From: Candidatus Caccalectryoclostridium excrementigallinarum
Lineage (GTDB): Bacteria > Bacillota > Clostridia > Christensenellales > UBA3700
Length of the DNA: 60,804 bases
Assembly: GCA_018714485.1 (NCBI GenBank)
Contig: DVNJ01000029.1
Span: 1 to 60,804, forward strand
Reading direction: 5' to 3'
Below, piece after piece: positions 18,908-60,804 of the stretch (its first letter is position 1; each line of letters begins with the position of its first letter). The translations under genes were made by a program, and so were the position numbers. Below the pieces are notes generated by a model. It saw only the letters and a program-made list of their open reading frames with translations, made no database searches and had not been told where the DNA came from.

Positions 18908-20254
18908 GTGACAAAAACCTTTCGCGGAATTTTCGCATTTTTGTTGAGCGCGGCGTGTTTGGCGTCTGCGCTGTTTTTGCTCTTTCCCGCCACTGCTTCG
19001 GCAGAGGAGTCGGGAGCGGAGAGCCTCGCCGATCAGATAGGCGTTTTCGGACTCACCGAGATACTCGGTCAGGCTTATCCCCTTTGGCTCGCCATCGTCG
19101 CGCTCGCGCTCTACGGCGGTGCGATCGTGGCTTTGATGGCGTTTTTGATAGCGCGCGCCGCGCCCTCGGAAAAGCCCGCGAAAAAGCAGGAGAGCGAGGA
19201 AGAAAAGCCCGCCTTGGAGTCGGTGGAAGAGGTGGCGCCCGTCGCCGCCGTCGCGCAGCCCGCAGAAGCCGCCCCCGCGCAAGAGCAGGCGCCCGCCGCG
19301 CCCGCGCAGGAGCAGGCGCCCGCCGCCCCCGCGCAGGAGCAGGCGCCCGCCGCGCCCGCAGCCGCGCTGCTTCCCGCGCATGACGAAGAGGAAGAGGACG
19401 ACGAAGTCGAGCAGATCTGGGACATCGAACCTCTCGCCAAACCCGCGCCCGTAGAGGAACCCGCGCCGGTTGAAGAAGTTGCGCCGGTCGAAGAACCCGC
19501 GCCCGTAGAAGAGGTCGCGCCCGTTGAGGAACCCGCGCCGATCGAAGAGGTCGCGCCCGTTGAAGAAGCCGCTCCTATCGAGGAAGTTGCGCCGGTTGAG
19601 GAAGCCGAGCCCGTAGAAGAGGTCGCGCCCGTTGAAGAACCAGCGCCGGTCGAAGAACCCGCGCCCGTTGAGGAAGCCGCGCCCGTTCAAGAGGTCGCAC
19701 CCGTTGTCGAGGAACCCGCGCCCGTTATCGCGCCCGTTGCCATCCCTGCGGCGCAAGAGCCGGAAGAGGGCACGGCGGAGTTTTACAGCGCGCTGGAAGA
19801 GAATAAAAAATACGACCGCTCTTTCCGCGCCAAGCTCGCGCAGGCGTCCGACGTGGTCAAAGAGCGTTACGGCGCCGTCTACAATATGCTCATGGCGTTC
19901 AAGGGCGTGAAGAGCAGGTATAGCTGGGACTGCGAGACCTTTAAGGCGGGCGGAAAAGTCGTCGCCAAGGTGACGATAATCGGCAAGACGCCCGTGCTGT
20001 TTTTGGCGCTCGATCCCGAGAAATACGCCGACACGAAATATCGCGTCGAGGACGCTTCCAAATATTCCAAGTATGCGCCCACTCCCGCGCGCTTTAAGGT
20101 GAACACCGAGCGCAAGGTGGGTTATGCGCGCGATCTCATCGCCGTGACCATGCAGGACTTCACGCCGATAAGCGAGAGTAAGGAGCTTCCCGCCATCCCT
20201 TACCAAAGCGACGAAGAGCTTTTGCAGGCGGGACTTATCAAAGTTATCAAGTAA
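18908..20254 (+). CDS. Exported, membrane-anchored PAPVEE-repeat protein with conserved C-terminal domain
   Basis: About 448 residues. A signal peptide (to ATASA, about 30) and a membrane segment (LWLAIVALALYGGAIVALM) are followed by an acidic Pro/Ala region with three APAQEQAPA units and some 17 six-residue units such as EEPAPV, then a 150-residue domain starting near FYSALEENKKYDRSFRAKL and including GKTPVLFLALDPEKY. I know this domain only as a recurring uncharacterised one in uncultured Clostridia. The GTG start at 18908 is preferred because upstream ATGs overlap the -10 box or are out of frame. A three-codon ATG-AAA-AAG-TGA frame overlaps the GTG. Confidence 0.75.
   Translation: MTKTFRGIFAFLLSAACLASALFLLFPATASAEESGAESLADQIGVFGLTEILGQAYPLWLAIVALALYGGAIVALMAFLIARAAPSEKPAKKQESEEEKPALESVEEVAPVAAVAQPAEAAPAQEQAPAAPAQEQAPAAPAQEQAPAAPAAALLPAHDEEEEDDEVEQIWDIEPLAKPAPVEEPAPVEEVAPVEEPAPVEEVAPVEEPAPIEEVAPVEEAAPIEEVAPVEEAEPVEEVAPVEEPAPVEEPAPVEEAAPVQEVAPVVEEPAPVIAPVAIPAAQEPEEGTAEFYSALEENKKYDRSFRAKLAQASDVVKERYGAVYNMLMAFKGVKSRYSWDCETFKAGGKVVAKVTIIGKTPVLFLALDPEKYADTKYRVEDASKYSKYAPTPARFKVNTERKVGYARDLIAVTMQDFTPISESKELPAIPYQSDEELLQAGLIKVIK
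19266..19357 (+). repeat. 27-base tandem repeats
   Basis: Three near-identical 27-base units encode APAQEQAPA blocks; differences are single bases, mostly C/G at wobble positions. Confidence 0.85.
19441..19740 (+). repeat. 18-base coding repeats (EEPAPV units)
   Basis: About 17 units of six codons encode alternating EEPAPV, EEVAPV, EEAAPI variants. Codon use drifts more than the peptide, so selection appears to act on the extended acidic Pro/Ala peptide, which probably spans the cell wall. Confidence 0.85.
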
Positions 20255-20671: not shown

Positions 20672-20766
20672 TTGGAAGATTAGGACGCAGCGCGTTAAGT
20701 ATCGCCGGACGGAGGAGTGACGGCGGGCGAAGAGCGCAAGGCTCGCGGTGCGGCGTCCGCTCCCGC
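20672..20766 (+). promoter_or_regulatory. Tetrahydrofolate riboswitch (THF-I)
   Basis: The sequence has the conserved parts of this aptamer in order: a P1 strand GGACGC (20683-20688), the signature GCGTTAAGT (20692-20700), the GGCGAAGAGCGC...GCGGTG segment, the returning P1 strand GCGTCC (20753-20758) and the closing CCGCTCC. Genes downstream are folate biosynthesis genes, as for known THF riboswitches. The call is by sequence pattern and context; no folding was run. Confidence 0.8.
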
Positions 20767-20853
20767 TTTGAATATGCGCAAAAAGTTATTTTCGGCGAGC
20801 TTCCAAGTTAGCGCCGCTCAGGCGGCAAGGCAGGGAAGCCCGCTTTTTTTCGG

Positions 20854-60014: not shown

Positions 60015-60043
60015 TTGCAAATCGCCGCGCGGCGTGTTATAAT
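60015..60043 (+). promoter_or_regulatory. Promoter of tRNA-Ser
   Basis: TTGCAA (60015-60020) and TATAAT (60038-60043), 17-base spacer, 10 bases before the tRNA 5' end. Confidence 0.85.
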
Positions 60044-60053
60044 CTTGGCACGC

Positions 60054-60142
60054 GGAGGCGTATCGAAGCGGTCATAACGAGGCGGTCTTGAAAACCGTTT
60101 GGGTGAAAGCCCACGGGGGTTCGAATCCCTCCGCCTCCGCCA
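60054..60142 (+). tRNA. tRNA-Ser (UGA anticodon)
   Basis: The acceptor arms GGAGGCG (60054-60060) and CGCCTCC (60132-60138) pair over seven bases, with G as discriminator and an encoded CCA. The anticodon loop CTTGAAA gives UGA, a serine anticodon, and a long variable arm (GGGTGAAAGCCC) is present as in class II tRNAs. The T-loop TTCGAAT is standard. Structure reading by eye. Confidence 0.96.
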
Positions 60143-60194
60143 TAATCAATTGAGGTCGCAGGGCGGCCTCTTTTATTATGGCGGAGGCGGAGGG
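60127..60194. repeat. Inverted copy of the tRNA-Ser 3' end
   Basis: Bases 60127-60146, covering the tRNA acceptor 3' strand and CCA, are exactly complementary over 20 bases to 60175-60194. A third, 16-base inverted copy lies at 60465-60480. The tRNA terminator sits in the loop. Confidence 0.9.
60152..60176 (+). terminator. Terminator of tRNA-Ser
   Basis: GAGG-T-CGC pairs with GCG-G-CCTC around AGG, followed by TTTTATTA, nine bases after the CCA. Confidence 0.8.
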
Positions 60195-60804
60195 CGTGCA
60201 CCCCCGTGATATGCTGATAGCATAACACGGGCTGCACGCGAACGGAAACGAAATTTTGTCTGTCTGAATATAGATTGCTGTCCGTTCGCTGTAAGGCGAA
60301 TCCCTCTGAGGGCGTGCGCCACCGTGATATGCTAAAGCATAACACGGGCTGCACGCGAACGGAGACGAAATTTTGTCTATCTGAACTTAGATTGCTGTCC
60401 GTTCGCTGTAAGGCGAATCCCTCCGCAAATAGGTTTAGGGTCGCATAGCGGTTCTTTTTTTGCTATGGCGGAGGCGGAGGAACCTCCGTGATATGCTGGA
60501 AGCATAACACGGGCTGCACGCGAACGGAGACGAAATTTTGTCTATCTGAATATAGATTGCTGTCCGTTCGCTGTAAGGCGAATCCCTCCGAGGGCGTGCA
60601 CCCCCGTGATATGCTAAAAGCATAACACGGGCTGCACGCGAACGGAAACGAGATCTTGTCTGTCTGAACTTAGATTTACTGTCCGTTCGCTGTAAGGCGA
60701 ATCCCTCCGAGGGCGTGCACCCCCGTGATATGCGCGAACGCATAACACGGGCTGCACGCGAACGGAGATGCGATCTTGTCTGTCTGAACATAAATTTACT
60801 GTCC
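60190..60804 (+). repeat. Direct repeat array of about 117-base structured units, truncated by the window end
   Basis: Units start at 60190, 60308, 60478, 60590 and 60709; the last is cut by the window. Each holds a hairpin CCGTG..ATGC(T/G)..(A/C)GCAT..CACGG, then a second structure closed by GCGAACGGA/TCCGTTCGC with two small inner stems, then GTAAGGCGAATCCCTCCG, which shares 12 bases with the tRNA T-arm end. A spacer (60425-60477) between units 2 and 3 repeats the terminator-plus-inverted-tRNA-end arrangement. No protein-coding sense is likely. Confidence 0.9.

Follow-up and report, generated by a model that had tools for sequence, protein, structure and literature searches.

Tandem repeats tailored to the adjacent tRNA, with a conserved hairpin at the T-loop position, in gut Clostridia

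Behind the tRNA-Ser(UGA) gene of Candidatus Caccalectryoclostridium excrementigallinarum lies an array of repeats from a conserved family that is tailored to the neighboring tRNA and carries a hairpin at the position of the T-loop, and we are confident that this family is real. We read the arrays, with a probability of roughly 0.4, as DNA-level tRNA-tail repeats that would have been born by template-switch or integrase-like events in the T-loop and kept palindromic, with islands landing beside them.

The window (the whole 60,804-nucleotide stretch that was analyzed) is an entire contig (C25) of a 1.43-Mb genome, and the contig end at 60804 cuts both the array and its fifth unit. An earlier note, made from the letters of the window, had proposed a tRNA-Ser-linked array of at least five units of about 117 bases. 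This array is real, extends over 60175–60804, and contains four complete units and one partial unit. Tandem Repeats Finder places it in two tandem stretches, 60190–60423 (period 117) and 60482–60804 (period 118), with repeats that are 90–93% alike. The features of this region are the following.

60015–60043, + strand: promoter-like site of the tRNA-Ser gene, TTGCAA-17-TATAAT (consensus scan, 10/12 matches)
60054–60142, + strand: tRNA-Ser(UGA) with encoded CCA, source of the copied tail (ARAGORN; Rfam RF00005)
60127–60146, + strand: tRNA tail CCCTCCGCCTCCGCCATAAT, left arm of the outer palindrome (sequence reading)
60152–60170, + strand: intrinsic-terminator-like hairpin between the tRNA and unit 1 (scan)
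60175–60194, + strand: start of unit 1, inverted tRNA tail ATTATGGCGGAGGCGGAGGG (sequence reading; reverse-complement match)
60193–60239, + strand: first hairpin of unit 1, inverted T-arm followed by the tRNA's own CACGGG (folding; left-flank match to own tRNA)
60233–60296, + strand: conserved hairpin insert of unit 1, TGCACGC...GCTGTAAGG, at the T-loop position (alignment; covariation over 54 distinct sequences)
60297–60308, + strand: direct tRNA copy of unit 1 from C56, CGAATCCCTCTG (sequence reading; own-tRNA match test)
60309–60425, + strand: unit 2, terminal CGAATCCCTCCG at 60414–60425 (sequence, DNA search, covariance model)
60437–60455, + strand: second terminator-like hairpin, between units 2 and 3 (scan)
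60466–60480, + strand: start of unit 3, second inverted tRNA tail TGGCGGAGGCGGAGG (sequence reading)
60481–60590, + strand: unit 3, terminal CGAATCCCTCCG at 60579–60590 (sequence; covariance model)
60591–60709, + strand: unit 4, terminal CGAATCCCTCCG at 60698–60709 (sequence; covariance model)
60710–60804, + strand: unit 5, incomplete at the contig end (DNA search)

The segments 60127–60146 and 60175–60194 are exact reverse complements, and the start of unit 1 agrees with the reverse complement of the tRNA-Ser end at 16/16 positions. Approximately 40 bases, holding the second terminator-like hairpin and the second inverted tRNA tail, separate units 2 and 3, and the scan thus found terminator-like hairpins ahead of both sub-arrays. 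The earlier note had each unit end with 12 bases shared with the tRNA T-arm; the ends are indeed tRNA-derived, but unit 1 terminates in CGAATCCCTCTG and the remaining complete units in CGAATCCCTCCG. Moreover, the unit contains elements beyond that description, namely the tRNA tail in inverted form and the T-stem of the tRNA, and its hairpin sits exactly at the T-loop position. Elsewhere in the window, a tetrahydrofolate riboswitch (RF01831, 61 bits) is present at 20674–20770, and tandem 27-, 18-, and 36-base repeats at 19227–19725, with periods that are multiples of three, possibly encode a repetitive protein segment.

Comparing units behind different tRNAs reveals a five-part anatomy. The unit opens with the adjacent tRNA's CCA end, acceptor, and T-stem in reverse complement; this inverted part extends across an altered T-loop in the direction of the variable loop and is decayed or short in some units. 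A hairpin turn near the variable loop follows, and then the 5' strand of the adjacent tRNA's own T-stem in direct sense (e.g., CACGGG, CATCCG, GACAGG, or GGTCGG). Instead of bases ~52–55, the unit carries the conserved hairpin insert TGCACGC...GCTGWAAGG (also GCTGWAARR), and it closes with the tRNA from C56 to CCA. Agreement with the adjacent tRNA is 92% over the six bases preceding the insert, versus 41% with other tRNAs, and 83% versus 56% over the 20 bases following it. At two loci (L010 and L066), the terminator behind the last unit differs from the one behind the tRNA, as if new material had been inserted between CCA and the original terminator. Minimum free energy folding supports a closing stem between unit start and unit end. 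This stem was rejected as the only structure, since the inverted tail pairs equally well with the upstream tail across the terminator.

Some relatives carry other material at these sites. Clade-specific inserts of different sequence occupy the same T-loop site at L258 and L263, where units 3' of tRNA-Ser have a different insert (..CTCGCTATTCCGTC..CCTTA) at the same break, before CGAATCCC. Sequence related to this insert occurs in reverse orientation in anticodon-loop inserts. The latter belong to 5'-side arrays upstream of tRNA-Ser(UGA) in genus g4 and G004 (L258, L255, L256, L254, L259, and L260), which repeat the promoter and tRNA bases 1 to ~51 and are interrupted in the anticodon loop (..GGTCTTG|TAAGG..GACGGAATAGCGA..TC|AAACCG..).

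The family reaches well beyond the window. A DNA search found 11 copies over three contigs of the window's genome (best E 2e-58), and a covariance model built from 21 units found 17 units in that genome and matches in 10 of the 46 genomes of the family. Single-strand folding of two window units gives z = −4.2 and −6.2; taken together, the 11 copies, the 17 model hits, and these z values exclude a chance origin. A second covariance model had matches in 25/396 genomes of the order, confined to 4/142 genera, and the named records with units are uncultured Christensenellaceae, Christensenella, and Clostridia and Candidatus Alloclostridium. In these gut Clostridia, units measure ~115–175 bases and lie next to a tRNA or tmRNA gene, the end of a contig, or an island that has inserted there; every copy with readable surroundings is tied to tRNA or tmRNA. 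Arrays stand on the same strand behind 14 tRNA kinds and tmRNA, the hosts being tRNA-Ser (four anticodons), Leu (three), Glu (two), Ala, Thr, Arg, Val, and Trp. The earlier note knew of no named element with this make-up, and Rfam gave no match for the units at gathering or relaxed thresholds (E up to 10). In the open-licence literature, only papers of a general kind on tRNA islands or template switching came up, and none described arrays of this type. When genome and viral collections were scanned for exact patterns, most matches were due to chance, and none of 30 pattern matches was a genuine viral copy.

The tmRNA-linked units of three genomes in two genera (G000, the window's genome, G003, and G014) all read CAACTCCCCTCAGCTCC, although the tmRNA T-loops of G003 and G014 have CGATT and CGACT at this position, and their first hairpins resemble one another. 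The shared sequence despite differing T-loops, together with the alike first hairpins, suggests that these units are probably old and vertically inherited. Three further loci show partial arrangements. At L070 (G001:C11 ~22900), the 5' part of a tRNA-Ser(GCU) remnant is fused directly to CTCCGCCA, followed by units, so this array outlived its tRNA gene. At L287 (G000:C11 ~2000–2170), tandem copies of the last ~30 bases of tRNA-Ile(GAU) plus a spacer lie behind the tRNA without the hairpin insert. Likewise, an inverted tRNA tail (15/16) without the insert follows the terminator of tRNA-Lys(CUU) at L288, possibly a bare first step.

The hairpin insert combines a nearly invariant foot (TGCACGC/GCTGWAA) with a stem that changes almost only in matched pairs and a freely varying tip of a few to about 50 bases. 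Alignment positions T8–C14 and G25–G28 are invariant over 54 distinct feet. Stem covariation over the 54 distinct sequences is 0.253 versus 0.064 after shuffling, none of 500 shuffles reaches it, 44 cells of the stem carry changes on both sides, and the signal vanishes once the pairing partner is slid. No clear signal of within-genome homogenization of inserts was detected (0.52/0.51/0.47).

The earlier note had taken two paired changes as a sign of selection for folding. One of them, ATGCT..AGCAT to ATGCG..CGCAT in the first hairpin, lies inside a genuine hairpin by both sequence and folding. The other, GAAATTTT to GAGATCTT, is also present; however, AAATTT/AGATCT is weak evidence for folding because, as a loopless palindrome, it cannot make a hairpin stem on its own, and because other species do not keep it. 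The inference of selection is itself doubtful. While the conserved hairpin does covary, a template switch during replication can create or repair a hairpin in a single event, with multibase compensatory changes among the outcomes (PMC8794818), so paired changes alone are no proof of RNA function.

The composition of the stems bears on this point. Three pairs show changes on both sides; their 158 paired cells are all A-T, T-A, G-C, or C-G, and none is G-U. By one stem rule, which favors Watson–Crick ends, G-T pairs make up 1/601 in the insert and 7/731 in the first hairpin, whereas tRNAs of the same genomes have 24/441 in acceptor stems and 31/310 in T stems. When whole units are folded freely, the deficit is smaller, with 7.7% G-U versus 10.7% in tRNAs. 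Because of this smaller deficit and the bias of the stem rule, the scarcity of G-U constitutes moderate evidence that the palindrome is kept as DNA rather than RNA. Overall, the near absence of G-U fits template switching or a DNA palindrome better than RNA, and the units appear, with moderate support, to be DNA-level elements. They are a clean case in which compensatory changes may stem from DNA-level processes instead of RNA function, which is a warning for covariation-based RNA discovery.

A DNA-level origin could proceed as follows. The inverted-plus-direct layout would arise by a template switch in replication, between the hairpin of the terminator and the tRNA gene's self-complementary T-arm, or, alternatively, through a T-loop-specific recombination event that duplicates the tail. 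Tandem copies would then multiply through unequal exchange, and template switching or hairpin recognition would keep the stems perfect. The invariant foot may be the recognition sequence of a recombinase or another hairpin-binding protein, and the insert may travel between tRNA genes as a small T-loop passenger. As the tRNA stays intact and transcription is probably terminated ahead of the units, the arrays would be tolerated and become landing sites for islands. Several observations weigh against this account. Template switching alone leaves unexplained why one conserved insert foot stands beside many tRNAs in several genera, the conserved unpaired bases of the insert could mean a functional RNA, and old, vertically kept tmRNA-linked units would suit a selected function. 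In addition, none of the recombinases, Y1 transposases, and reverse transcriptases tested tracks the units.

Among the other readings, the first is that the units are folded single-strand recombination sites resembling attC, in which a recombinase would recognize the insert by its invariant foot, extra-helical C, and variable tip and attach it at the T-loop crossover in any tRNA, each event leaving behind a displaced tail. We hold this to be unlikely, yet it accounts for a good deal: the right junction is always C56, within a known integrase crossover subsite (PMC4383910), a displaced tail terminates nearly every unit, the tandem arrays adjoin cargo islands, and the foot is constant beneath a tip of variable length. 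If it holds, the insert would represent an element of a new kind that targets tRNAs broadly. What a simple integration would not produce, however, are the tRNA-specific left T-stem and the inverted copy. The units also lack gene cassettes, and no insert was found outside a tRNA context. Furthermore, no PF00589 tyrosine recombinase, not even Xer, was detected in the window's genome (assembly 96% complete), though 45/46 family genomes have at least one, and no array was found with a linked tyrosine recombinase.

Large serine recombinases are patchy among the genomes. A low-GC island with a large serine recombinase, Eco57I-type restriction-modification, RhuM, and DUF genes adjoins the C3 array of G002, and a GmrSD-type gene adjoins the C10 array. 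The suggestion of an integration hot spot in the earlier note is borne out to the extent that recombinase-borne islands and restriction genes adjoin several arrays; these islands have their tRNA ends in common with the arrays but do not account for the units. At L026 (G000:C23), the last codons of a large serine recombinase gene lie within the 3' end of tRNA-Ala(GGC). Related AT-rich cargo is located between units or between tRNA and units at L009 (G000:C11) and L024 (G002:C9), with tRNA-tail fragments at both edges and, at L024, a serine-recombinase C-terminal remnant as judged by eye.

A structured RNA comparable to E. coli RtT is likewise improbable in our estimate. According to this reading, read-through from the tRNA promoter would yield a multi-arm fold closed by the tRNA-tail stem, whose processed form would regulate how much tRNA is supplied or some other process. 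Multi-branched folds of high stability (z −2.1 to −6.2), the covariation, the conserved unpaired bases, the persistence of tmRNA-linked units across genera, and the annotation of the similarly laid out RtT as an E. coli sRNA all suit such a role, but terminator-like hairpins stand ahead of the units, no convincing promoter was seen inside them, their stems are nearly without G-U pairs, and Rfam holds no match. The GNRA tetraloop GCU-GWAA-GGC was considered as an RNA signature and rejected, as the small stem of GCTGWAAGGC is not kept (AAGAC, AAAAC, and AACGC occur).

REP/BIME-like palindromes spread by a RAYT (Y1) transposase, as the earlier note had considered, or retroelement remnants, including a tRNA-primed element with the inverted tail as a primer-binding site, are very improbable: despite the short bulged palindromes in clusters, copies are tied to tRNA/tmRNA, a contig end, or an island edge, and most unit-bearing genomes lack the enzymes (Y1 is absent from G000, G003, G004, G005, G014, G017, and others, and reverse transcriptase from G000, G001, G002, G004, G014, G017, and G020).

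Set beside known systems, the units share with REP/BIME the clustering of imperfect palindromes but are tRNA-bound, have no RAYT, and differ in sequence. Integron attC sites are hairpins with a conserved foot, an extra-helical base, and a variable tip, and the units, which also form arrays, are similar in form; however, their foot sequence is different, and they come without cassettes and, in the window's genome, without an integrase. As in Islander-type tRNA islands, an intact tRNA is followed by displaced tail fragments, with breaks in the T-loop and, in the 5' arrays of relatives, in the anticodon loop. However, whereas Islander assignment calls for a displaced fragment with an integrase gene inside, the ~115–175-base units contain fragments but no integrase, cargo, or gene, the serine-recombinase islands beside some arrays are separate, and the units additionally have tRNA copies in inverted orientation and, to the left of the junction, sequence specific to the tRNA.

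The closest counterpart is the array of 175–178-bp tyrT repeats/RtT (rttR) of E. coli K-12. These repeats, known to end in the tRNA-Tyr tail, were also seen here to do so. They contain an inverted T-arm/tail copy, GGGGAAGGATGAGAAGCTTCGA (19/22 matches, 0/1000 shuffles), and, after a short turn, the direct AAGGTTCG and a T-loop insert ahead of AATCCTTCCCCCACCACCA. A similar unit also occurs between the two tyrosine tRNA genes (L312, E. coli K-12 1286000–1288200). The clostridial arrays have the same composition, being tandem units behind a tRNA that terminate in its 3' end and, in the window and its relatives, hold an inverted T-arm and tail, a turn, a direct T-stem, a structured T-loop insert, and the tail to CCA. 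However, the tyrT insert is unrelated in sequence, its break falls a few bases later in the T-loop, it occurs at tRNA-Tyr only, no terminator is visible between tRNA and repeats, and RtT is annotated as an sRNA. The RtT family of Rfam found no match among the units (at gathering or E up to 10), and our covariance model found none at E. coli tyrT, indicating that the layout can arise with a different insert. Thus, tyrT and the clostridial units have a common layout with unrelated inserts, and we rate the latter as a tyrT-like variant that could clearly come to define a wider class. The anticodon loop and T-loop are known integrase crossover subsites (PMC4383910), which, with the inserts found in both loops and the tyrT layout, suggests that tRNA genes are subject to a general process. 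We tentatively propose, as a conjecture somewhat less probable than its opposite, that tRNA-tail repeats form a general class of bacterial DNA elements from Clostridia to E. coli, made by an undescribed process that would copy the tail of the adjacent tRNA both inverted and direct and plant a recognized hairpin in the T-loop. With the clostridial arrays, the single-locus curiosity of the E. coli tyrT repeats becomes a comparable system of many tRNAs and several genera with a common layout, in which models become testable.
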